A DNA stretch of 41,138 bases from Haloplanus aerogenes (lineage in GTDB: Archaea > Halobacteriota > Halobacteria > Halobacteriales > Haloferacaceae): the NCBI RefSeq assembly GCF_003856835.1, contig NZ_CP034146.1:1-41138 (forward strand). Direction: 5' to 3'. The notes beneath the pieces are model-generated. The model saw only the letters and a program-made list of their open reading frames with translations. It had not been told where the DNA came from and did no database searches. Position 1 is the stretch's first letter. Every line of letters begins with the position of its first letter. The position numbers and the translations under genes were made by a program. Shown here one piece after another: positions 1,951 through 40,941 of the stretch.

Positions 1951-3054
1951 TCACGAACTCAGGCCTTCTTCTGCAAGAGACATCGCAAACTCGGAGAGCC
2001 GATAACGGTAGGGAGTATGACGGAAGATAACCCGACCGTAGTCATCACCTTTGTCCACTTCGCTCTCCTCAATCGCGTCAACCGCCCTGTTCAGTTTCGA
2101 CAGCTGGTTCCCCTCGCGAAGATAGGATTCAACCTTGTCTGGCCGGATATCGAACTCTTCTGCAAGAATGAATCGAAGAGTCCGACGACCACCATCTGCA
2201 CGGATTACAGTATCACCAGCATACTCCCCGTCACCAGGTCGCATCGGGCTATCAAGCCGATCCACCATATCATCAATGAGACGTTCGATCTCCTCTTGAA
2301 CCGTCTCCTCTACTTCCCCACTGATGATCTGATCTCGCCGTTCACTAATCGCGTACGTCGATGGACCCGGAGGCTGGAACTCCTCAAGGACACCCAGATC
2401 AACAAGATGGTTGATGGCGGTACTAAAGGAGTGCTCGAATGTTAGCCGTTCCGCGATCTCGTTTCGAGTCAAGCCCTCTGACTCCGGTCCGATTTCCTCT
2501 TCGTACAAAGCAGTCACAATAGAGATCTGATCATCAACGCTGGGGAGATCTCCCTTCTGGTCCCGGATGTAGGCAGCAAGCGCATTGCTGCCGGTCAGTT
2601 CCTCGTCCTCACTCTCATCCCCTGGGCGTGGAGCCTGCGCGTATTTGTCGATTTCATCCGTCGTTTCCAGCCTCTCGTACATATCCTGCAACGTGCCCTC
2701 AGCCCCAAGCAGCCCCATCTCCTCCAATAGGTCGCGACCGACATCAGTGAGGCCGTAGAAGCGCCAGGGCAGATCGCGCTTGCGCTGATCCTTCGGAAGC
2801 GTTCGCTCCGCCACGATCCCGTGCTCGATCAGCACCTCGAGATGTTCGCGGATGGTACTCTTGCTCTTGCTCGGGTTCACGTAGTCGAGCTCTTTGAGCG
2901 TGGGGAGCTGCTGCGGATGAGAGAGAATATTCTGAATCAGGACAAACCGCGTCTCTTGCGTAACGACGTTCAGGCGCTGTCGCTGGTTCTCAACCGTACT
3001 GTCGCTTGCATCGGTCGTGTCGGGCTGATCCCGATGCGTCGTGTTGTGGGCCAT
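1951..3054 (-). CDS. Two-part winged-helix transcriptional regulator
   Basis: A 367-residue protein. Residues about 30-130 form an ArsR/MarR-like winged helix (LNVVTQETRFVLIQNILSHP, then PSKSKSTIREHLEVLIEHGIV, then a wing with WRFYGLTDVGRDLLEEMG). Residues about 165-360 form a second region that begins with PSVDDQISIVTALYEE and ends with YGRVIFRHTPYRYRLSEFAMSL. That second region also occurs alone in the genes at 35068-35712 and 37662-38264. It includes another helix-turn-helix segment (GLTRNEIAERL...AINHLVDLGVL). It is probably a DNA-binding repressor, with unknown targets. It diverges from the gene at 3312, so the 250-base gap may be shared control DNA. Confidence 0.75.
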   Translation of the reverse strand: MAHNTTHRDQPDTTDASDSTVENQRQRLNVVTQETRFVLIQNILSHPQQLPTLKELDYVNPSKSKSTIREHLEVLIEHGIVAERTLPKDQRKRDLPWRFYGLTDVGRDLLEEMGLLGAEGTLQDMYERLETTDEIDKYAQAPRPGDESEDEELTGSNALAAYIRDQKGDLPSVDDQISIVTALYEEEIGPESEGLTRNEIAERLTFEHSFSTAINHLVDLGVLEEFQPPGPSTYAISERRDQIISGEVEETVQEEIERLIDDMVDRLDSPMRPGDGEYAGDTVIRADGGRRTLRFILAEEFDIRPDKVESYLREGNQLSKLNRAVDAIEESEVDKGDDYGRVIFRHTPYRYRLSEFAMSLAEEGLSS

Positions 3055-3253
3055 AGTTTTGGGGACAGCTACAGTCGATTGGGCACCTGCTGTAGCTATC
3101 GCTGTGAGGTCGTACTCCCCTCCCTGACAGAGGATGGGAGCAACGAAATACCGGTCTGGGGCAGGGTAGCCGACCGGTATCGATCGGTGCTGGTTGTGTT
3201 GCTTGTGTTCACGCTAGCGTATAGTCGCCGGCGCTATAAATGCTTCGGCGATA

Positions 3254-4910: not shown

Positions 4911-6137
4911 ATGCGTCGATTCGAGCGGAAGCAGAATATCTTCCGCAACAAAGACGCTCTTGGAGAATCCTACCAACCCGACCAAATCGAGGAGCGGGAT
5001 GAGGAGATCGAGGAGTACATGGACGCTCTCCAGCCCGTTGTTGACGGGTGGGAACCGAACAACATCTTCCTCTACGGGAATACCGGTGTCGGGAAAACCG
5101 CTGTTACCGACTACCTTCTCGACAGACTCCAGGATGATGTCGCTGACTATGACGACGTCAACCTATCAGTCATCTCGTTGAATTGCAAGACGCTGAACTC
5201 CTCCTATCAAGTCGCCGTCGAACTCGTGAACAAGCTTCGTCCTGCTGGCGGTGAAATCAGTTCAACTGGCTATCCCCAGCAGACTGTTTTCAAGAAACTG
5301 TACGAGGAACTTGAGGCGATCGGCGGGACGATTCTGATCGTCCTGGACGAGGTCGACTCGATTGGTGACCGAGACGAATTATTGTACGAACTTCCGCGAG
5401 CTCGGGCGAACAACAACCTCGACTCGGCCAAGGTTGGTGTCATCGGGATCAGCAACGATTTCAAATTTCGCGAACAACTGGACCCTCGCGTCCAAGACAC
5501 GCTCTGTGAACGAGAACTCCAGTTTCCGCCGTATGATGCACCTGAGCTGGAGAATATTCTGGAATCCCGCGCTGAAATCGCGATCGCAGAGGATGCCGTC
5601 GAGCAGGGTGTGTTGAACTTCTGCGCGGCTCTTGCTGCTCGCGATAGTGGCAGTGCCCGTCAGGCGCTCGACCTCCTTCGATTGGCCGGTGAGATCGCGG
5701 AAAACCGTGAAGCAGACCTCATCGAGCGTGACCACGTCGAGGCAGCACGATCCCGTCTTGAACAGGAACGTGTCGAAGAAGGAATGCGTGAGCTGACGAC
5801 GCACGGCCGTCTCGCACTATTAGCCGTCATCTCGAAAGCCGCTAAAGAGGAGACTCCGTGTCGAACGCGGGAGATTTACGAGGAATACATCACCCTGTGC
5901 GATTCCTCCGGAACTGACTCACTCGCTCAGCGATCCGTCCATAATCATCTGTCGGATCTTCGGATGCTCGGGATTCTGTCGGCCTACGAGAATCGGAGCG
6001 GGTCTCGAGGAAATTACTACAGCTACGAACTGGACGTCCCGTTCACGAGTGCGATCGAGGCGATGTCTGATGTTCTGCGGTTAGACAGCGAGATCGAGAC
6101 GATTCGAGAAATTGCATCGATGAACAACGTCGCCTAG
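4911..6137 (+). CDS. cdc6: Orc1/Cdc6 replication initiator
   Basis: A 408-residue AAA+ ATPase that binds origin boxes and is expected to load the MCM helicase. Walker A is GNTGVGKT at residues 56-63, Walker B is the LIVLDEVDS block near residue 145, and the ISNDFKFREQLDPRVQ stretch near residue 190 corresponds to sensor 1 and its flank. The C-terminal third (from about residue 290) is the winged-helix DNA-binding domain. Length is normal for haloarchaeal Orc1/Cdc6. Boxes lie on both sides: three upstream and four downstream, the first downstream box beginning at the base after the stop codon. This marks the gene and its flanks as a working origin of the replicon, and as the plasmid's cognate initiator. 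Confidence 0.95.
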   Translation: MRRFERKQNIFRNKDALGESYQPDQIEERDEEIEEYMDALQPVVDGWEPNNIFLYGNTGVGKTAVTDYLLDRLQDDVADYDDVNLSVISLNCKTLNSSYQVAVELVNKLRPAGGEISSTGYPQQTVFKKLYEELEAIGGTILIVLDEVDSIGDRDELLYELPRARANNNLDSAKVGVIGISNDFKFREQLDPRVQDTLCERELQFPPYDAPELENILESRAEIAIAEDAVEQGVLNFCAALAARDSGSARQALDLLRLAGEIAENREADLIERDHVEAARSRLEQERVEEGMRELTTHGRLALLAVISKAAKEETPCRTREIYEEYITLCDSSGTDSLAQRSVHNHLSDLRMLGILSAYENRSGSRGNYYSYELDVPFTSAIEAMSDVLRLDSEIETIREIASMNNVA

Positions 6138-9066: not shown

Positions 9067-10128
9067 TCAATCGTCGGGGAGATCGAAAATCCCGTCCGGT
9101 TCTGCCTTGTCGACGATAATCGAGTTTGGACGGGTACAAATCGCCTTGATGCGACCGTATTGGCGGGTCGACAGAATCTCTGTCTCCTCACTACATGCGG
9201 AGCGGTAGTTGTCGTAGGCGTCTTGATCGTCTTTCTTCCCGACACTCACGATCACGTACGCAGGATCCATTACCTCTACTGCCTCTCTGTGAAAGCCATC
9301 CTTGCGACCGTGATGAGCGGCTTTCAGCACATGGACGTCTTCGAGAACTTCAGGCCCCCACTCCGCTAAGATTTCGTCCCATACGTCCTCTTCAGCGTCT
9401 CCCGGGAGCAGGATTGAGCGTGTCCCATGCTGGATTTTGAGGACGTAGCTGTAGTCGTTATATTCCGGATCTTCTAGCTCAGCATTCTGCTCATTAAGTT
9501 CCTGAACGAACTCCGGGGACGGATGGAGGATCTCTATATTGTCGTGCTTCCAGTATTTCTTTTGTTGCCCTTGAGTCGGCTGGATATTGTCGTGGTTCGT
9601 GTCTCCCTCTCGAATGTCCTCGTAAAGTTCCCAATCTGCCCACTCGTAGACTTCGTACCAGTCATCTCCATCACGCTCGCGATTGTGATCGGTGTCCCAA
9701 AACACGCTAAATCCGATTTCTTCATCGAGTCGGTTCAACCCCGATAGGTGATCCATATCTGGATGAGTCGCGATGAAGCGCCAGATCTTGTGTGTCACCT
9801 CGTCAAAATTCTCGTTATAGTACTCGATTGGATCATTGAGGTACTCTTGAGCGTACTCTTCAGGGCTGATCTGACTTTTTTGCCGAATCCCAGATAAGCG
9901 GCTTTGCTGGTCGTCTTTCACCGGAAATTGACGATAGTACTCCAGACTGCTGATGTCGTCTTCCTCGACGTGTTCCTTCTGCTCCGGCCAATCGTTGATA
10001 TCGATAACCGATATTCGCCCCTCGTCCCGATGTTGATCACCAGGGTGCCGAACGATGGTGCAATCACCATGGTCAACGTTCAAAAAATGAACCTGGAGGT
10101 GATTATAGAGCACTAGATGTGAACACAC
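9067..10128 (-). CDS. Metallo-beta-lactamase-fold hydrolase, ComEC-type
   Basis: A 353-residue MBL-fold protein. The first strand is LQVHFLNVDHGDCTIVRHPGD, the metal motif is THPDMDHLSG at residues 121-130, LLPGDAEEDVWDEIL gives the bridging Asp, and LKAAHHGRKDGFH is the following His motif. Together with VIVSVGKKDDQDAY these resemble the soluble domain of ComEC/Rec2. Such stand-alone proteins are probably nucleic-acid or phosphodiester hydrolases. It is divergent from a second MBL protein (10215) with an 87-base gap, so they may be co-regulated. The exact start is uncertain, since GTG codons shortly inside would also keep the first strand. Confidence 0.8.
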   Translation of the reverse strand: MCSHLVLYNHLQVHFLNVDHGDCTIVRHPGDQHRDEGRISVIDINDWPEQKEHVEEDDISSLEYYRQFPVKDDQQSRLSGIRQKSQISPEEYAQEYLNDPIEYYNENFDEVTHKIWRFIATHPDMDHLSGLNRLDEEIGFSVFWDTDHNRERDGDDWYEVYEWADWELYEDIREGDTNHDNIQPTQGQQKKYWKHDNIEILHPSPEFVQELNEQNAELEDPEYNDYSYVLKIQHGTRSILLPGDAEEDVWDEILAEWGPEVLEDVHVLKAAHHGRKDGFHREAVEVMDPAYVIVSVGKKDDQDAYDNYRSACSEETEILSTRQYGRIKAICTRPNSIIVDKAEPDGIFDLPDD

Positions 10129-10214
10129 ACCAGCCCCGTATGTTTCTTTCGTGGTGGCAGTTCCTCTTCAGTTCTGCCCGAACTTCCTAAACGGGCGGCT
10201 AATCTAATACCAGT

Positions 10215-11096
10215 ATGGCTGCTGTCGAGATCTACATTTGGGATGTCGAGCGGGGGGATGCGATTTTCGTTAAGGGGCCAGAACGGAACGCAGTCATTGA
10301 TCTGGGCCAGCACGCGAACGGCTTTTCGCCCAGTCGCCACATCCATACACAGCACGGAATCGACTCGGTTGATTATCTAGTGCTCACGCATCCAGATGAA
10401 GATCACATCGAAGATCTCCCCGAGTTTTCATCATATTTCTCACCTGAAGTGATTGCCCGTCGTGACGAAGCAGACGAGTATATCAGACGGCGGAAAAACG
10501 ATCTCTACCCCGACCGCTCACACTACCAGTCAGTGACAGAAGCTTATCTAACACTCACTGATACGTACGATCGACGAGCAACCTTCTCCCCGAGTGACCC
10601 CTCCTGGAATGGAGGTCTGACATTCACCCACCACATTCTTTCGTTAGCAGAGGCCGGAACGACACCTATCGACGATTTAAGCAGAGGAGAGACGGTGAAC
10701 CTGAACAATCTCAGCATCTTGACGGTGCTTGAATATGGATCGTTCAAGTTCGTCACTGCGGGCGATCTCGAACAGGAGGCGCTTGAAACCCTTCTGGAGC
10801 AGTCCTCCGTCTGTGATGACCTTCGCAATACGAATGTCCTCGTCGCCCCTCACCACGGCCGTGAAAGCAGTTATACACCGAAATTATTCCAGCATATGAC
10901 GCCGGAGTTAGTCGCGATATCGGATGCGAAAGCCGGGTCGACGAATGCAAGCCAGAAATACAGTGCGCAAGCGACTGGCGCGACCGTCTCCCGACGATCA
11001 GGAACGAAAACAAATCGGAATGTTGTTACGACGCGGCAGGATGGCGTTATCTATCTCGGAATCGACGACGAAGAGTACCGTGTACGAATCGATTGA
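10215..11096 (+). CDS. Second metallo-beta-lactamase-fold hydrolase
   Basis: A 293-residue MBL-fold protein, divergent from the one at 9067-10128. It starts with VEIYIWDVERGDAIFVKGP and has the metal motif THPDEDHIED (His59, Asp61, Asp63, His64), KFVTAGDLEQEALETLL and LVAPHHGRESSY. It lacks the 80-residue insertion seen between the first strands and the HPDMDH motif of its neighbour, so the two are distant relatives rather than a recent duplication. The likely reaction is phosphodiester hydrolysis. Three genes follow on the same strand, all with membrane segments, suggesting that a soluble hydrolase works with membrane partners. Confidence 0.8.
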   Translation: MAAVEIYIWDVERGDAIFVKGPERNAVIDLGQHANGFSPSRHIHTQHGIDSVDYLVLTHPDEDHIEDLPEFSSYFSPEVIARRDEADEYIRRRKNDLYPDRSHYQSVTEAYLTLTDTYDRRATFSPSDPSWNGGLTFTHHILSLAEAGTTPIDDLSRGETVNLNNLSILTVLEYGSFKFVTAGDLEQEALETLLEQSSVCDDLRNTNVLVAPHHGRESSYTPKLFQHMTPELVAISDAKAGSTNASQKYSAQATGATVSRRSGTKTNRNVVTTRQDGVIYLGIDDEEYRVRID

Positions 11097-11160
11097 CCGA
11101 CTTCGATACTCGTGAATCTCGGCCAAGTGTTTATAATGCGTTAGCCGCAAATGTCAGCTA

Positions 11161-11451
11161 ATGGTATCCACCTTCGACCCCGCCCAGAATGGTGGGATCG
11201 GCGACGGCCCCGAGTTACGGACTACTGTCCCCACCACGAGGACGACCTCGAATGGATTATTCGACGATATTCAGGACTCCACAGCGACAACGTCGGAGCA
11301 GCAGTCTCAGCAACCCTCGTTGGGAGAGGCTATTGGGAGCGCGCTCGTCCTCGTCGGCGCAGCGTGGCTCGCTGGTGAGATCCTGGGAGAGATCTTTGGA
11401 TCCGGGGCAGATCTGACTGCTGTCGAACAACAGATTCTCGCGTCGGCATAG
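11161..11451 (+). CDS. Small protein with one C-terminal membrane segment
   Basis: A 96-residue protein. The first 60 residues are polar and rich in Thr, Ser and Gln, probably disordered. The rest holds one hydrophobic helix (IGSALVLVGAAWLAGEILGEIFG) and a short helical tail. It has no recognised family. A TATA-like TTTATAAT about 30 bases before the ATG suggests its own leaderless transcript. It sits between the MBL gene and the larger membrane protein and may be a membrane tether or small effector of the cassette. Confidence 0.5.
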   Translation: MVSTFDPAQNGGIGDGPELRTTVPTTRTTSNGLFDDIQDSTATTSEQQSQQPSLGEAIGSALVLVGAAWLAGEILGEIFGSGADLTAVEQQILASA

Positions 11452-11546
11452 CTGGATTTTCGGTCGGGTGGATCTCTCAACAATACTCCTTCAGTGGTGC
11501 ATATGAGATGATATATGGGCTATCGGGTTGTCCGTAGTAACAGGCT

Positions 11547-12239
11547 ATGGCTCTTGCGCGAAGCTTCCGAGCGCTGGGATTCTATGATGTCATCACGAAT
11601 CTCGTTCCTGGCGCGCTCTGGATTGGCGCTCTCATTCTTTTACTCCCGGTTGACGAGCTGATACAGGGCCTTCCCAGTGGGGTAGTTGTCGGGGGATTTC
11701 TCACGCTCGCATACGTGACCGGCCATCTGCTTCAGGCGCTGGGTAGCTGGGCTGATTCACCCACGACCTTCGGTGATACACTTACCGCAATTCAAAATGA
11801 GACACCAGCGACGGCGCCGATCACAGTCACATACGTTGAAGAATCGTTTTTGACGCTGTGTGAACAGCAGTTTACACTTCCATCGGATTTCGAACATTAC
11901 GGGAAGCTCCTGAAGATGGTACTGAGTTATCTTGAGACAACACCCTATACGCGTGCTCTCCGGTTTCAGTCAGTCTATTCGTTCCATCGGAGTATGTGGG
12001 CCGCGTCCTGGTCTCTGCTCGTAGTGCTCGCTGTTTTAGGTGGTCTTAGCGCTCTGGGACACTCACTTCTCCCCTCAATTACCGTAACTGGTGGAGTTAC
12101 TATCGCTGCACTTGTCGGCGTTGCTGTCTTTTGGAACCGCAAAAATAAGTTCGACAAGACCTTCGTAAAATACCTGTTCGTCGATTTTTATAATGCTCAG
12201 CAATCGACTGTATCCGGAAATTCTGGCCCCGGGAGCTGA
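11547..12239 (+). CDS. Membrane protein with NLVPG signature
   Basis: A 230-residue protein with four or five predicted membrane segments: two near the N-terminus (VPGALWIGALILLLP and VVVGGFLTLAYVTGHLLQALG) and two near residues 150-200 (WAASWSLLVVLAVLGGLSAL and ITVTGGVTIAALVGVAVFW). A soluble helical domain lies between them. The N-terminal FYDVITNLVPG phrase resembles the YD-x-x-x-x-PG start of bacterial membrane proteins often found in accessory and defence loci; this is recognition of a pattern, not a family match. The TATA-like GATATATG is about 35 bases upstream. It is a plausible membrane effector or anchor with the MBL hydrolases. Confidence 0.55.
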   Translation: MALARSFRALGFYDVITNLVPGALWIGALILLLPVDELIQGLPSGVVVGGFLTLAYVTGHLLQALGSWADSPTTFGDTLTAIQNETPATAPITVTYVEESFLTLCEQQFTLPSDFEHYGKLLKMVLSYLETTPYTRALRFQSVYSFHRSMWAASWSLLVVLAVLGGLSALGHSLLPSITVTGGVTIAALVGVAVFWNRKNKFDKTFVKYLFVDFYNAQQSTVSGNSGPGS

Positions 12240-12295
12240 TGCTTGATCTCTGACTAGACGGCACTTTCACGTCTCCGGAGCCGGATATCGATGAT

Positions 12296-12625
12296 ATGAA
12301 CGTAGAGGAAGCTATTGAAACCGGGGGCTTGGCAGCATTCTTTCTGTTTACTGCCCTGTTTCTCTCTACGATTAATTTCTCACTCGGTGGGTCGCCGAAT
12401 ACTGTAGAGACTGCCAACAAACTCTCACGTTTCCTCTATGCCGGCGTGATGACCGTTGCTCCGACATCTCAGCTGGCGATAGCTATTGACTTAGTTGCTG
12501 CTCTGATCGCTTCTGTGGGGCTACTACAGGGTGTCAAAGAGTCCATCAAGGGCGGGGCCATCGGTGCTGCGTTTCTCTACTTTTTCATCGGATTCTTGGT
12601 GAATTATGCGACTGCTCCGGTGTGA
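12296..12625 (+). CDS. Small three-segment membrane protein
   Basis: A 109-residue protein with three hydrophobic helices at about residues 10-28, 50-78 and 85-106. The loops are short and contain few charges. No family was recognised. It follows the NLVPG membrane protein by 57 bases on the same strand and is likely part of the same cassette. After its stop a convergent small membrane gene begins. Confidence 0.5.
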   Translation: MNVEEAIETGGLAAFFLFTALFLSTINFSLGGSPNTVETANKLSRFLYAGVMTVAPTSQLAIAIDLVAALIASVGLLQGVKESIKGGAIGAAFLYFFIGFLVNYATAPV

Positions 12626-12698
12626 ACGACCAAAAAATTGGAAAAGTAGTTTGCGTACGATACCTCAGCCCTTCCTAGGGCACTACGTTGGGTTTTGT

Positions 12699-12902
12699 TT
12701 AGTCGTCAGTCTCGGTTTTCCACCCCGCGAGCATCCAACTCATTGTGCTCAGGAAGCTGAACACGATCATCAGCAGGCTGTTCCAAATTAACATTCCTTG
12801 CGTTGCGCTCGGATGTAATCTGGAGACCAGCGCTGCGATCGCGAACAGCTTCGCGAACACCAAGTTGAACATGGCTAGCGGACGATACAGTTGTTCGTGC
12901 AA
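12699..12902 (-). CDS. Small two-segment membrane protein
   Basis: A 67-residue protein with two hydrophobic helices (MFNLVFAKLFAIAALV and MLIWNSLLMIVFSFLSTMSWMLAGW) and an acidic tail. The amino-acid pattern is more membrane-like than expected of a chance frame, but a short gene cannot be proved by reading alone. A later Met near residue 11 is an alternative start. The palindrome at 12955-12993 lies about 55 bases upstream and might control it as well as the RNA on the plus strand. Confidence 0.45.
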   Translation of the reverse strand: MHEQLYRPLAMFNLVFAKLFAIAALVSRLHPSATQGMLIWNSLLMIVFSFLSTMSWMLAGWKTETDD

Positions 12903-12954
12903 GTTCGTGTTCTATCCTATTTGGTGTGCTTGAGCCTGGTGCAGGGCCGGCAGA

Positions 12955-12993
12955 AGGTATATACTGTATGAGTATGTACAGTATGTCACCTTC
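12955..12993. promoter_or_regulatory. Nested palindromic operator over a TATA box
   Basis: An inner perfect 8-bp repeat ATACTGTA / TACAGTAT (12962-12969, 12978-12985) sits inside an outer AAGGT / ACCTT pair (12955-12959, 12989-12993). The sequence GTATATAC at 12958-12965 is a good TATA box for rightward transcription, with an expected start near 12988-12992. That is exactly where the first RNA hairpin begins. A repressor bound here would block TBP. Confidence 0.6.
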
Positions 12994-13210
12994 CGCACGG
13001 TTAGTGTGGAAGCGCTGCACTACACGGAACGATAGGGCGTTCCGAGCAGGACACGACCCAAGGACCGGTCATCCTCGCTGACAACCCTCATTGCCAGCGA
13101 GGCACGATACTTGGTGCGCCGGCGGTCCCTATGCCGCCGGGAAGCGGATCTGACCATCCTGTTCCCCTGGTACTGGGGGACTTCCTTCCGTGGTGGATCA
13201 CCTCTTTCGT
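12990..13210 (+). ncRNA. Candidate structured non-coding RNA
   Basis: No gene was found in this 220-base stretch, but consecutive stems are visible. They are CTTCCGCAC/GTGTGGAAG (12991-13013, one G-U pair), CGGAACG/CGTTCCG (13025-13044), CCTCGCTG/CAGCGAGG (13073-13102), CCGGCGG/CCGCCGG (13119-13140) and GTTCCCC/GGGGGAC (13161-13181, one G-U pair). The strand is inferred from the promoter at 12958. The segment ends with TGGATCACCTC (13194-13204), the sequence of the 16S rRNA 3' end including the anti-Shine-Dalgarno core. No known RNA family was recognised. Confidence 0.5.
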
Positions 13211-13247
13211 GTTAGCACATGGCACGGCCAGGGTAATAAAGATTGCG

Positions 13248-13259
13248 ACTAAATTTAGT
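13248..13259. promoter_or_regulatory. 12-bp perfect palindrome ACTAAATTTAGT
   Basis: A self-complementary AT-rich dodecamer in the gap between the candidate RNA and the 3' end of the gene at 13275. It may be a protein site or an end-of-transcript feature. Confidence 0.3.
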
Positions 13260-13274
13260 TTATAGCGTATTATC

Positions 13275-13949
13275 TTAGGGAAAGAACTCGCTCGGGCTAG
13301 GTTCTGCTATGGACGTAGAATCAGCATCCGATTTCATATGAGCTATGGCTCTCTGCTTCCATACCTCAATATCTCCGGATGGGGCTACTGGACCGGCGTA
13401 CACTGCCAATTTCAGCACACTCAATAATTCATCAGCTGCCTTCCCCGTCTCCCGTTCGTACCTATGGATACGCTCACGCGCGTCATCATCAATCATTGGT
13501 GCGAGAGCCCGTTCACCCACAACACTATCTGCGATCTGCCGTATGGCCTGATTTTTAGTACAAATTTGTGTCCTTGAATCTGAAAGTTCGTTTTTTCGCT
13601 CGTGGAAGAACGTATGAAGACGTTCTCTCCAGGACTCCTCGAAAGTCTGTGGATTAGCGTCTGGTCCTCCGAAGCCCCCACTTTTGTCGATTACGTCACT
13701 TCTGTAACTGAGATCCACGACTTTCCACCCTTCGAGTGAGACGGGTGGACGATACTCTTCGAGAACAACATCGAGGTAATCCACCACGATGATTAGCCTT
13801 TTTGTCTCCGTGACGTCCTCCGGATTAGTGTCCTGATATTCGAATGCATCAGCGATGAATCGGAGGAGGAATACGTTGTCGAAGGCACTCCCTGGGTTCT
13901 CACCACCCAGTTCACGGATTGCTTGATTGAGTGGGGGTTGGTCGTGCAT
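13275..13949 (-). CDS. Hypothetical protein divergent from an RHH gene
   Basis: A 224-residue protein with no recognised family. The frame is open further upstream to 14198, but that part overlaps the divergent gene and reads as non-protein, so the ATG at 13949 (MHDQPPLNQAIREL) is chosen. The body alternates strands and helices: KRLIIVVDYLDVVLEEYRPP, then a WKVVDLSYRSDVID strand, then long charged helices (ESWRERLHTFFHERKNEL). The strand with VVDYLDVV followed by GWKVVDLSY could be a nucleotide-binding or nuclease core, but no catalytic set is clear. It shares a 120-base intergenic region with the RHH gene and may be its operon-like partner in control. Confidence 0.5.
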   Translation of the reverse strand: MHDQPPLNQAIRELGGENPGSAFDNVFLLRFIADAFEYQDTNPEDVTETKRLIIVVDYLDVVLEEYRPPVSLEGWKVVDLSYRSDVIDKSGGFGGPDANPQTFEESWRERLHTFFHERKNELSDSRTQICTKNQAIRQIADSVVGERALAPMIDDDARERIHRYERETGKAADELLSVLKLAVYAGPVAPSGDIEVWKQRAIAHMKSDADSTSIAEPSPSEFFP

Positions 13950-14071
13950 CACTATACTCGTGAGACACGTTAGCACGCCAGTTGTAAAAGTATGTCGGAA
14001 GTTTAGATTAGGGGTGGCTAAAACTAATACTATGGCCACTTTTTTGTAGTTGTGGGTTGTTGGCCCCCCTA

Positions 14072-14614
14072 ATGGGAGAAAGCACGAAGCAGATCGGCGT
14101 CCAGGTTGATGAGGATCTGAAGGAGGATTTCCGGAATGTTGTAAAACACCGCCACGATGGAATTCGCGGTCCTTTGGGTGATGCCTATGAGACTGCAATG
14201 AAGCTGTACATTGCCACGTACCTCCTTACAGAACCCTCTGAATATACCACGCTCGTCGATTCAACTGATGTGGATACAGAAGCATTCGAGCAACGGCTCT
14301 CAGAGTACGTTGATTCTGTTGGAGAGCAGCTCATTGAACTACATCGATTAATCCAACAGCACGAACAAGCTCCACTCCTGTCGCCACCCTCTGCAAGAGG
14401 ACAACTTCAACGCATACAGGGCGATTCTCCTTCCGACGCGTGGAGCCGTCTCAGAACACAGTTACCATTGGAACCCCCGAAAGATGAAGCGACGTATAAT
14501 CCGGAGGCATCGGATCAGGGCGCCGATGAAATGACCCAAAAAATACGAGAGGAGATTAAGAAAATGGCTGAAGAAGGGGAAATCGATCTCGACGCAACTA
14601 ACGATAATAAATAG
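14072..14614 (+). CDS. Plasmid-type ribbon-helix-helix protein
   Basis: A 180-residue protein. Residues 5-55 (KQIGVQVDEDLKEDFRNVV...GPLGDAYETAMKLYIATYL) form a ribbon-helix-helix unit. It is followed by a helical linker, a polar middle and an acidic helical tail (TQKIREEIKKMAEEGEIDLD). Haloarchaeal plasmids often encode RHH proteins of this size that act in copy control or partition. Whether this one binds the CTATAG arrays is an open possibility. The ATG at 14072 fits the start of the ribbon; an ATG at 14057 is also in frame. The upstream GTGGC/GCCAC repeat near 14020 could be its operator. Confidence 0.6.
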   Translation: MGESTKQIGVQVDEDLKEDFRNVVKHRHDGIRGPLGDAYETAMKLYIATYLLTEPSEYTTLVDSTDVDTEAFEQRLSEYVDSVGEQLIELHRLIQQHEQAPLLSPPSARGQLQRIQGDSPSDAWSRLRTQLPLEPPKDEATYNPEASDQGADEMTQKIREEIKKMAEEGEIDLDATNDNK

Positions 14615-14675
14615 GAATCTCTGCTTCGGCCGATACCAGTCGGACTTTTGCCCTGGTACTGTCTACGACGAGGTA

Positions 14676-15224
14676 GTGACGGAGCTCGAGGTCGCCAACG
14701 TCGTCGGGATGATCACCTATCAGCAGGAACTCGACCTCGCGGCGCTTGCTAAGACGTTCGAAGAGCGAGACGAAATCACGGATGTCACCTACGAACCGGC
14801 CGACAACCACTGGTTACAGACGCGCTTTGCCCCCGACGACACGTACGTCGCCTTCTATCGGACGGGACGTTGTTCGATTGCTGGCTGTCGGTCCATCGAA
14901 CACTTCGAAACGATGGTCGACCGTGTGAATGCGGTCATGCGTGAGCTGCTGGACTTCGAGTACGAGCCGGCGGCTGAAATCAGTAATATCGTGGCGACGA
15001 GCGATCTCGGCTCGCCGATTCCGTTGGAACTGCTTACCCTCGAGCTGGGGATGGATGCCGTCGAGTACGAGCCGGAGCAGTTCCCAGCGCTGATGTATCG
15101 TGGAGCGGACCACGTGATCCTCGTCTTCGCGAGCGGAAAGTTGCTTTGTACTGGACTTACCGATCTGGAGGCCGTCTCCGAAGCGGTCGACGATCTCCGA
15201 GGGCGGATTCAAGCCGTCGTCTGA
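14676..15224 (+). CDS. Divergent TATA-binding protein, paralogue 1
   Basis: A 182-residue TBP, near the normal length for archaeal TBP. It has two repeats. The second (from about residue 95) is canonical: a strand ending in SNIVATSDLGSPIPLELL, then EYEPEQFPALMYR and VILVFASGKLLCTG. The first begins well (LEVANVVGMITYQQELDL) but has lost the FPG-x-x-YR segment, which now reads YEPADNHWLQTRF, and its SGK turn reads YRTGR. Because paired phenylalanines in both repeats kink the TATA box, one half of the DNA contact should be altered. The GTG start at 14676 lies 62 bases after the RHH gene. It is probably an alternative promoter-recognition factor. Confidence 0.85.
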   Translation: MTELEVANVVGMITYQQELDLAALAKTFEERDEITDVTYEPADNHWLQTRFAPDDTYVAFYRTGRCSIAGCRSIEHFETMVDRVNAVMRELLDFEYEPAAEISNIVATSDLGSPIPLELLTLELGMDAVEYEPEQFPALMYRGADHVILVFASGKLLCTGLTDLEAVSEAVDDLRGRIQAVV

Positions 15225-15270
15225 ATGGCCCCTCTCGAAATGCGATGTGGATCGGCTCTTCACTGACTGT

Positions 15271-15315
15271 CTTACCAAACAGTTGTATCCAAGACAGCGA
15301 CTAATGTTAGGTAAG
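15271..15315. promoter_or_regulatory. CTTACCAAACA inverted pair, copy D
   Basis: CTTACCAAACA (15271-15281) and TGTTAGGTAAG (15305-15315) are separated by 23 nt, with one mismatch in the second arm. The pair lies between the two TBP genes, about 100 bases upstream of the second. Confidence 0.7.
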
Positions 15316-15412
15316 AAAGAGTCACGGCTGCGCCGTTTCTGTCCTCAGGGGCTACCTCGTGATTCAACAATACATAAGCAGTCGGTAGGAGAAGTAGGTG
15401 ACAACCTGACTG

Positions 15413-15946
15413 ATGGAGATAGTTAGTACGATGGGATCGGGCTCGCTCGGTCGCGAGCTGGATCTCGATGTGTTCGTCGACGCTCTACAGGAGGCAGTTG
15501 AGTACGATGTAAACCCGAGCTACAGCGACTCCGGAATGATCACGGTTCGCTTAGAGCCGGAGGGTGTTGCCTATCTGTTCTACCGCAGTGGAAGCTTCCA
15601 GATTCGCGGTGCCGAGAATCAAGCGGCTCTGGAGAAAGCGGAGGCCCGACTTCAGGAGGTGTTTGCTGAGATCGGCCTAGAGGTTCCCGAGTACTCGTTC
15701 GAACAACGAACGGCCGTCTTCATGGAGAATCTGGACCGGTCTATTGATTTGGAACGGCTAATGATCGAACTCGGGCTCGAACACACCGAATACGAACCGG
15801 AACAGTTCCCGGCACTCATCTACAAACCTCCAGCCTTCGAGGTGACGCTTCTCATTTTCTCCAGCGGGAAGATCATCATCGGCGGAACGATGAGTAAGCG
15901 TACCGCTCAGGAGGCCATTGACCATCTGACTAAATCCCCCGGCTAG
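15413..15946 (+). CDS. Divergent TATA-binding protein, paralogue 2
   Basis: A 177-residue TBP paralogue. Like its neighbour it keeps a normal second repeat (LERLMIELGLEHTEYEPEQFPALIYK, then LLIFSSGKIIIGG). The first repeat has lost the FPG block (YDVNPSYSDSGMITVRL), although it keeps LGRELDL and YRSGS. The shared pattern suggests both descend from a TBP already altered in repeat one. The N-terminus MEIVSTMGSGSLGRELDL aligns to the usual TBP start, so the ATG at 15413 is right. It overlaps the convergent metallopeptidase gene by four bases and has an inverted-pair regulatory site (copy D) upstream. Confidence 0.85.
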   Translation: MEIVSTMGSGSLGRELDLDVFVDALQEAVEYDVNPSYSDSGMITVRLEPEGVAYLFYRSGSFQIRGAENQAALEKAEARLQEVFAEIGLEVPEYSFEQRTAVFMENLDRSIDLERLMIELGLEHTEYEPEQFPALIYKPPAFEVTLLIFSSGKIIIGGTMSKRTAQEAIDHLTKSPG

Positions 15947-25694: not shown

Positions 25695-26774
25695 TCAGCG
25701 CAGGGTGTCCCGTTCCGCCTCGAGGCCGACACCCGGGTCGTCGGTGCCGTGTTTGGCTTCGTAGGCGTCGACGAGCTCCCGACTGTACCGCGCGATCCGA
25801 TTTCGGGACGTCGGCACGATCGTGCTCGCCGCCGCGGCGACCTGCTCTTGGGTGAGGTGCTTGCGCGAGAGCAGCCGATCCGCCGCGTACAGCGCGGACG
25901 CCGCGACGGTGCACCGTGGCGTCCCCGGCCCGACCGGCACCTGATCGCCGAGTTTCATCAGGTGTTGGGCCAGCCGCCACGTCCGCACGGCTCGCGCCCC
26001 AGGGATGGCGTCGTCATCAAGCGCGTCGACGACCGCCATCACGGCGTTGGGCCTGATGAGTGGCGCCTCGAACCCACATTCGCACCGTATCTTCCGCGCC
26101 GCAGCGCACACCCGCTCGTGGGGCGCCTTGGTGTGTGTCGCGACCGCGACATCGATCTCGTCCCGGTCGACCGATGAGGCTCGCGCAGCCAGGAGGACGG
26201 CGCCGCCGGCGAGTGCCTCCCAGGCCATCCGCCCGCCCGGCAGCCGCGCTTCTGAGGCGCTCCGGAGGAACTGTGCCGCCATCTTGACGACGTGGTCCGG
26301 CAAGCTCAGGTTGCCGCCGATCATCTCGACGTCCCGCAGCCCCTCGTTGAGCCGCTTCGTCCGCTTGCGCTTCTCGCCGAACTGCATCCGCTTGTGCCAC
26401 TTCCGGAGGCGCTGGATCTTCTCCCACTGCTCGTTGCTCAGGGGATTACCCCGACCGTCGGTGTTCCTCCCGATCTTCGTGTGCAGGCCCTTGTCCGTCC
26501 GCAGCGGGTCCACCGTCTCGATGCTCTGGTCAGCGTCTCCGACCAGGCCCAAGTCGTTCAGCGTCGGGCTCAGGTCGACCCACTCGTCGGCGACGATCAG
26601 CCCGCAATCCGTGCAGAACGACTGCTCGTCTTCGGTGATCACCTGGCCCTCACACTCCGGACAGGTTGATCGCCCCGACGGCTCGTGTTCGACCGTCAGC
26701 TCGTGACCGCGTTCTTCGGTGGTCGTACTCTGTCCGTCCGAAACCGTCTTTTCGCTCGCGTTGTTACTCAACAT
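25695..26774 (-). CDS. tfb: Transcription factor B paralogue
   Basis: A 359-residue TFB. The zinc ribbon uses Cys38, Cys41, Cys54 and Cys57 (CPEC...CTDC). The B-reader/linker block follows (KIGRNTDGRGNPLSNEQWEKIQRLRKWHKRM), then two cyclin-like repeats. The first contains MAWEALAGGAVLLAARASS and the second RCTVAASALYAADRLLSRK with TSRNRIARYSREL. TFB binds the BRE next to TATA and recruits RNA polymerase. The cyclin repeats are divergent, in line with a specialised factor. The two divergent TBPs 10 kb away on the same replicon are likely candidates for its partners. Confidence 0.92.
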   Translation of the reverse strand: MLSNNASEKTVSDGQSTTTEERGHELTVEHEPSGRSTCPECEGQVITEDEQSFCTDCGLIVADEWVDLSPTLNDLGLVGDADQSIETVDPLRTDKGLHTKIGRNTDGRGNPLSNEQWEKIQRLRKWHKRMQFGEKRKRTKRLNEGLRDVEMIGGNLSLPDHVVKMAAQFLRSASEARLPGGRMAWEALAGGAVLLAARASSVDRDEIDVAVATHTKAPHERVCAAARKIRCECGFEAPLIRPNAVMAVVDALDDDAIPGARAVRTWRLAQHLMKLGDQVPVGPGTPRCTVAASALYAADRLLSRKHLTQEQVAAAASTIVPTSRNRIARYSRELVDAYEAKHGTDDPGVGLEAERDTLR

Positions 26775-39692: not shown

Positions 39693-40091
39693 TTAGAGGC
39701 CCTTGGTCGCCTGTTCGCGGGCCGCCTCCCGAACTGCCTCGAATTCTTTGGGAGCTGCCTCCTGGAACCCGAGACGGAGTGCAAGGCGAAGGATCTCACT
39801 CCGGTCGACATCGCCCTCCTCGATATCTAGCTGGCGCTGAAGCGCGTGGCCGACCTCCTCCAAGCGATCAGGATTCTCCTCAAGTGCACGAATGAACGCC
39901 GCGAGATGTCCATCCCACACGCTGATGGTCTTCTGTTTGTCGCCGGCGTCGATAGCCTCCAACTCATCGAGGATGTTCTCGACGAGATCGCGCCTCGCGT
40001 CTTCGGCAGCCGCTTCTTCGATCCGGTCACCGTGGGACGTCTGTTCGCGAAGCGCCGCAAGGTCGTCGTCATCTTCAGCCACCGTGATCAC
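39693..40091 (-). CDS. ParA partner protein
   Basis: A 132-residue acidic protein that starts at a GTG overlapping the parA stop (GTG at 40082 is an alternative). It has a helical N-terminal half (EDDDDLAALREQTSHGDRIEEAAAEDARRDLVENILDELEA), a central KTISVWDGHLAAFIRALEENPDRLEEVG segment and a C-terminal EGDVDRSEILRLALRLGFQ stretch with the S-E-I-L-R-x-A-L look of a ribbon-helix-helix protein. It takes the place of ParB and is the natural candidate to bind the CTATAG arrays on both sides of the operon. Confidence 0.7.
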   Translation of the reverse strand: MITVAEDDDDLAALREQTSHGDRIEEAAAEDARRDLVENILDELEAIDAGDKQKTISVWDGHLAAFIRALEENPDRLEEVGHALQRQLDIEEGDVDRSEILRLALRLGFQEAAPKEFEAVREAAREQATKGL

Positions 40092-40941
40092 CTCCAAGAC
40101 GGGAAACAAGCGTTTCAGCAGCGTCGAGATACGCCTCCCGAGCCCGGCGAGCCGTCGTCGACGGCTCCTGGAGCGCAAACGCAGTCTGGCCGTGTTCCGC
40201 AGCGTTCCGGATGTCCTGTGAATACGGGACGTAGTCGGGCGCGATGGCGTCCGGATACTCCGACTCGAACGCGTCCAGGTACTCCTCGGCGAGATTCGTT
40301 CGGGTATCGACCTTGTTCGGGAGCACGAGCGTGAGCTCGATGTCGACCGCGAAATTGTCGGCAATCTTCCCGAGGTCGCGACGGAGGGCATCAGCCTGCT
40401 CGGCCTCGAACGGTCCCATCTCGACGGGCGTGATGACGTGACGGGCGGCCCACAGTCCGTTGTAGGCGACGTTATTCGTCATTCCCGGGAGGTCGACCAA
40501 GACGACGTCATAGCCGAGCGGGTCGACGTACTCGTCGAGGAACTGTTCGAGACGACTGTAGCGCTCGCGGGCATCGTCGATATTCCCGAGTTCGGCGTCG
40601 AGGGTGTCGAGGCCGGGATGGGCCGGGATAAGGTCCGGTCCCTCAGCAGTCGGAACAACGAGATCAGCAAGAGTGTCATCGCCCAGCTTCTCGGCGATCG
40701 TGCCCCAGGCGTCGTCGAAGACAGTGCTGATATTCGGCCATGCCTCGTCGGCCTCGATCCGCGCCTGGTAGTCCCCCCAGACGCCGAAGTGCTTCGCGAG
40801 ATCGCCCTGCTTCCCGGCGAGATCTACGAGCAGGACCTCGTGGCCCAGCTCCTCGAGGGCGACGCCGAGGTGGGCGACGGTCGTCGTCTTCCCGGTGCCG
40901 CCTTTGTCGAGGAACGCGGCGGCGCGCAGTGTATCGCTCAT
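40075..40941 (-). CDS. parA: ParA partition ATPase
   Basis: A 288-residue ParA/Soj-type ATPase. The deviant Walker A is KGGTGKTT at residues 13-20, switch/Walker B include VLLVDLAGKQGDL and VVLVDLPGMTNN, and the signature-like IAPDYVPYSQDIRNAAEHG follows. ParA drives plasmid segregation by binding DNA non-specifically while the partner holds the centromere. It is the first gene of a two-gene operon with CTATAG repeats in its promoter (40952-41034), so it is probably autoregulated. Confidence 0.92.
   Translation of the reverse strand: MSDTLRAAAFLDKGGTGKTTTVAHLGVALEELGHEVLLVDLAGKQGDLAKHFGVWGDYQARIEADEAWPNISTVFDDAWGTIAEKLGDDTLADLVVPTAEGPDLIPAHPGLDTLDAELGNIDDARERYSRLEQFLDEYVDPLGYDVVLVDLPGMTNNVAYNGLWAARHVITPVEMGPFEAEQADALRRDLGKIADNFAVDIELTLVLPNKVDTRTNLAEEYLDAFESEYPDAIAPDYVPYSQDIRNAAEHGQTAFALQEPSTTARRAREAYLDAAETLVSRLGGDHGG

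Follow-up and report, generated by a model that had tools for sequence, protein, structure and literature searches.

The window, by which is meant the whole stretch of DNA analysed here, is a complete contig of 41,138 bases belonging to a haloarchaeal genome of two contigs and 3.5 Mb. Because it encodes Orc1/Cdc6 (cdc6, 4911-6137), ParA (40075-40941), a type I restriction-modification system, two TBP genes and a TFB-like gene, the contig is regarded as a plasmid or secondary replicon. Its adjacent pair of TBP genes, with the TFB-like gene (14676-15946 and 25695-26774), makes up a plasmid-borne set of basal transcription factors, and the TBP block shares 96% identity with a plasmid of Halobaculum magnesiiphilum. 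At 9067-12239, two genes of the metallo-beta-lactamase fold, one of which matches the PADLOC candidate PDC-M48B (E 1e-48), stand beside a protein with a weak match to Csx27 and possibly form a defence cassette with it. A copy of positions 10153-12270 is found at 82% identity in another genome, and a plasmid of Halobacterium sp. DL1 matches here as well; in that plasmid the adjoining place of the RNA module described below is taken by an ISH3 transposase gene. This module lies within 12289-14637, flanked by blocks that match other plasmids and that end at about 12289 and begin at about 14637, and the segment looks as if it had been exchanged as one unit.

The module contains a gene for a 67-amino-acid small membrane protein (SMP; 12699-12902, minus strand, start codon TTG), whose two hydrophobic segments were identified by hydropathy, a hairpin immediately before this gene (12950-12996) and a folded RNA domain (12985-13216), homologous and covarying at three loci. 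Wobble-pair and energy tests assign the domain putatively to the minus strand, where the initial annotation had given the plus strand. The palindrome, TATA-like box and stems listed in that annotation are all present in the sequence, and its statement that the region holds no protein-like reading frame agrees with the comparison of homologues, in which no frame is conserved across the RNA region.

The whole RNA measures about 230-320 bases. Its first stem, CTTCCGCAC/GTGTGGAAG in plus-strand letters, occupies 12990-13012 and is followed by four hairpins, all placed tentatively on the minus strand. These are hairpin B' (GGAACG/CGTTCC, 13026-13043); hairpin C (CCTCGCTG/CAGCGAGG, 13073-13102), the best supported stem, with 5 of its 11 pairs changed on both sides; hairpin D (CCGGCGG/CCGCCGG, 13119-13140), which carries the invariant loop CCCTA (plus letters), shows changes in both partners at 3 of 7 pairs and is paired in 100% of cells of the three-row alignment; and hairpin E (GTTCCCC/GGGGGAC, 13161-13181), with four core pairs kept where aligned. 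A stem GGTG/CACC (plus letters) is located at 13192-13202. On the plus strand the window RNA folds at -96.2 kcal/mol, compared with -81.3 +/- 5 for dinucleotide shuffles (z -2.98), a value that is notable but by itself short of proof. In the window the loops AUAGGG of hairpin B' and CCCUAU of hairpin D can pair at every position; in both homologues the match is nearly complete, with one compensatory change. A kissing contact between them is only suggestive, since the p of about 0.01 applies to a loop pair that was chosen after inspection.

A blastn search over 170 genomes of the family gave matches to the SMP gene only, in contig C10 of genome G115 and contig C68 of genome G236 (Halorubrum distributum JCM 10118, NZ_AOJN01000068.1), plus one short match of 30 bases. 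A separate 25-bp blastn match was rejected because it lies within a protein-coding gene, presumably one for a phosphoglucosamine mutase-like protein. In both G115 and G236, an unannotated segment that can be aligned with the window RNA adjoins the SMP gene in the same geometry. Both homologues lie on plasmid-type contigs, in two further genera, and fold better than their shuffles, with z-scores of -3.1 and -3.9. In a three-row alignment with 31 core pairs assigned by hand, 91% of the cells in these pairs are standard pairs and 9 of the 31 pairs show changes in both partners, where shuffles give 4.1 +/- 1.4 and none of 500 did as well. Control versions in which the pairs were slid along the alignment show 0-2 pairs changed on both sides, and the longer leader alignment of the same three loci shows 24 of 79. 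The initial annotation had named homologues lacking compensatory changes in the stems as evidence against a structured RNA; such changes are present in both homologues. A covariance model built solely from G115 and G236, in plus orientation and with the window left aside, recovers the window at 13021-13193 (strand unset) with 79.5 bits and an E of 3.4e-18, the runner-up reaching 9 bits. On the sequence evidence of these three copies, the structured RNA is real and under selection for pairing. Matched mutations keep the folds and the SMP gene always adjoins, and for these reasons the RNA is accepted as a new family, established from three copies.

The family is rare. A second covariance model, built from all three copies and applied to overlapping sets of 170, 392, 146, 125, 18 and 126 genomes, found just the three known copies, one in each carrier genome, and all other matches scored 26 bits or less. 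Those between 20 and 26 bits were rejected, the best of them being partial or poorly paired; the one match that was read through completely, in genome G199, lies inside open reading frames, with just one hairpin matching. Phage, plasmid and viral collections yielded no copy of the RNA at the sensitivity used, and it is from these searches together with the covariance search that rarity is concluded. Comparison of the window with Rfam 15 on both strands, at gathering and permissive thresholds, gave no match, the best sub-threshold score being 14.9 bits for RAGATH-25 against a cut-off of 49; neither homologue had a match at E <= 1. The opinion that this is a structured RNA outside known families is upheld by the Rfam result, the covariation and the blind recovery of the window. 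Haloarchaeal intergenic sRNAs such as sRNA132 and s479 of Haloferax volcanii share the intergenic position and the type of host, whereas the window RNA, by description, belongs to a rare family that is tied to plasmids, has a strong, conserved structure and always lies beside a membrane protein gene. Judged from its sequences, the family is previously undescribed and is carried on haloarchaeal plasmid-type replicons.

The SMP gene adjoins the RNA at all three loci, so that the link between the RNA and the small membrane protein at 12699, already proposed in the initial annotation, holds beyond the window. SMP is 67-70 amino acids long across the loci, with two hydrophobic segments and invariant stretches including KLFA, HP, WN and SWMLAG. 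Its dN/dS values of 0.20-0.44 indicate that the protein evolves under purifying selection. It belongs to no Pfam or NCBIfam family above cut-off, and no relative of SMP was found in plasmid and phage collections at the sensitivity used. Scans of viral contigs found no relative of the RNA, of SMP or of the protein DP considered below. Weak SMP-like matches in family f4 were rejected; those inspected have no such RNA adjacent and are located either within a larger gene or on contigs as large as chromosomes. An AUAGG element stands 10-18 nt before the SMP start codon at all three loci (12903-12925 in the window, minus strand). It could be a ribosome site, though a weak one, or else a site for pairing. 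DP, a protein family of unknown function with 174-184 amino acids, is encoded beside the RNA in G115 and G236 (11105-11626 of locus L009 and 2533-3087 of locus L010, both minus strand). It was rejected as the RNA partner, being absent from the window and present without nearby RNA in the six plasmid homologues examined. Relatives of DP (under 60% identity) occur on 17 haloarchaeal plasmids, several of them between amidohydrolase and BCCT transporter genes.

The plasmid location and the stem-loops with complementary loops would suit a plasmid copy-number or incompatibility RNA, a role that the initial annotation had offered as antisense copy control. This role is highly improbable: antisense matches on the plasmid are never longer than 12 nt and do not exceed chance, no replication gene is adjacent (cdc6 lies at 4911-6137), and replication and partition genes differ between the three contigs, that of the window having Orc1/Cdc6 and ParA, that of G115 a primase-like protein and a ParE-type toxin, and that of G236 ParA with restriction genes and a resolvase. 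Nearly as improbable is a DNA element, such as a transfer origin or recombination site, with hairpins that do their work in the DNA itself. Single-stranded DNA would likewise preserve covarying hairpins, and the region belongs to a variable part of the plasmid. However, the strand bias of the wobble pairs, set out below, fits RNA, SMP constantly adjoins the region, and no relaxase or recombinase gene is adjacent at all three loci.

Transcription had been placed on the plus strand, starting with the first stem, because a TATA box precedes that stem. The strand statistics make this doubtful. The consensus fold of the core reaches -70.4 kcal/mol on the minus strand against -57.0 kcal/mol on the plus strand, and the fold extended up to the SMP start reaches -87.2 against -73.1 kcal/mol. 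Relative to column-shuffled alignments, the leader has z-scores of -11.95 (minus) and -8.48 (plus), and the strand difference has a z of -2.72, with none of 150 controls as extreme; for the core alone the z-scores of the two strands differ little (-7.65 and -7.40). The better fold of the minus strand comes from conserved A.C mismatches of the plus strand, which turn into G.U pairs. In hairpin C, for example, an invariant plus-strand A.C mismatch becomes a G.U pair on the minus strand at all three loci, and the interior cells of helices defined without wobble pairs hold 10 G.U on the minus strand against 5 on the plus strand. The first stem of the window goes the other way, with G.U on plus and A.C on minus. 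Taken together, wobble pairs and energies indicate that the RNA is probably read from the minus strand, which would place it upstream of SMP on the same strand, an order that would then hold at all three loci. A candidate TATA box for such a transcript, TTTATT at 13235-13240 (minus strand), predicts a start near 13214; both the window and G115 have a TTTAWK box that precedes one shared alignment column by about 26 nt, and in G236 the putative box is less clear and at a different distance.

A plus-strand RNA divergent from SMP would start from the TATA box at 12958 and act in trans, on SMP in the manner of an antitoxin or elsewhere. It is considered possible because none of the three loci has lost the TATA-like stretch, which lies at the right distance from a conserved CACCUUCC start. 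The first stem of the window, with its G.U on the plus strand, the small hydrophobic neighbour and the plasmid setting point the same way. The last two features recall the trans-encoded type I systems tisB/istR-1 and dinQ/agrB, in which a small hydrophobic protein stands beside an RNA gene. These systems, however, have extended complementarity to the mRNA, which is absent here: the longest exact complementarity between the RNA and the SMP mRNA is 8 nt and hybrid energies fall within those of shuffles, so that a classic RNA antitoxin, as had been suggested, is doubtful. Support for antisense control of SMP is limited to a UAGG/CCUA match of 4-5 nt. Typical type I toxins are under 60 amino acids (PMC8309996), and against the usual description of such a toxin, under about 60 amino acids with a transmembrane helix, SMP has 67-70 amino acids and two hydrophobic segments. 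Type I systems have also been reported only from bacteria (PMC12390103). With the strand statistics opposed to it as well, a divergent plus-strand RNA appears rather unlikely.

The palindrome before SMP had been taken for an operator covering the TATA box. Its outer arms are GCAGAAGGT (12950-12958) and ACCTTCCGC (12988-12996), and its inner arms ATACTGTA (12961-12968) and TACAGTAT (12977-12984). In the window, 10 of 500 shuffles contain a nested palindrome as good; in G115 (77/500) and G236 (202/500), shuffles equal the inner dyad by itself too often for it to count as rare. What stands out is solely that the dyad pairs from locus to locus although its sequence has changed. Read on the minus strand, the three loci have as inner arms AUACUGUA/UACAGUAU, GUCCGG/CCGGAC and GUCUGGG/CCCGGAC, enclosed by invariant GAAGGU/ACCUUC. 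The arms of the dyad change and yet stay complementary, as those of an RNA hairpin do, and for this reason the operator is doubtful; the palindrome is more likely an RNA hairpin belonging to the same transcript. The TATATA within it (12958-12963, strand unset), AT-rich in all three loci, may serve either SMP or a plus-strand RNA as promoter, or may be just an unpaired part of the hairpin.

The minus-strand order of the module suggests that the RNA may be a cis-regulatory 5' leader of SMP. Of the roles considered this is the likeliest, with the divergent plus-strand RNA and a separate RNA that binds SMP as its chief competitors, and we hold it tentatively, at a little under even confidence. Transcription would begin from a promoter near 13240, cross first the folded domain and then the covarying hairpin (12950-12996), and run into SMP, and the putative minus transcript would thus have a 5' leader of about 310 nt controlling SMP. 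The folded domain and the hairpin would compete for the same short segments: GGAAGGU has as possible partners both ACCUUC, immediately ahead of SMP, and upstream segments of the CCUUCC type, and ACCUUC could alternatively pair with GGGAGAAG near the 5' end of the RNA. A signal stabilising one fold would then cause SMP to be made or stopped, as in a riboswitch or another cis-acting leader. These competing helices were picked out by inspection; in the computed leader fold ACCUUC is engaged in long-range pairs, and such a competition near SMP is what a regulatory leader would be expected to use. The likeness to riboswitches and other cis-acting leaders thus lies in competing pairings near the start and in the position, directly ahead of a single small membrane protein gene, of an RNA that is structured and covaries. 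Unlike them, the RNA matches no Rfam riboswitch, and neither a terminator nor sequestration of a ribosome site is evident in the leader sequence. Further points count against a leader: the sequences number only three, protein-coding transcripts of Haloferax volcanii are mostly leaderless (72%; PMC4983044), and the AT-rich, TATA-like stretch inside the hairpin at all three loci could be a true promoter, either of SMP or of a plus-strand RNA. If SMP had its own promoter at this stretch, the RNA would be separate from the SMP transcript.

Such a promoter would accord with a further arrangement, in which a separate minus-strand noncoding RNA upstream of SMP forms a membrane-bound complex with the SMP protein, by analogy with OLE RNA and OapA. 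Read on the minus strand, the module has the order and strand of ole-oapA, in which the gene found most often directly downstream of ole is the one for the membrane protein (PMC12265935). The RNA and SMP co-occur at all three loci, and in both systems a noncoding structured RNA has a constant membrane protein gene as neighbour. There are also differences, and this arrangement is judged unlikely. OLE has no Rfam match in the window; it is bacterial and about 600 nt long, whereas the window RNA is haloarchaeal and, with about 230-320 nt, half that size. SMP has two hydrophobic segments, compared with four predicted helices in OapA.

Structured regulatory RNAs of archaeal plasmids are, to our knowledge, little known. 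The functions of archaeal noncoding RNAs in general are still poorly understood (PMC5867862). For the family described here, function is a reasoned guess: it could represent a new class of haloarchaeal plasmid RNA that responds to a signal and so controls SMP, as a new riboswitch class, or takes part in a membrane RNA-protein particle, an archaeal counterpart of OLE-OapA, although we consider this possible rather than likely. The analysis illustrates that three diverged copies are enough to establish a rare RNA family and that wobble pairs can overturn the strand assumed from promoter-like sequence. The RNA together with SMP forms a compact, testable module, which may turn out to work as a leader switch in archaea or as a complex of RNA and membrane protein.
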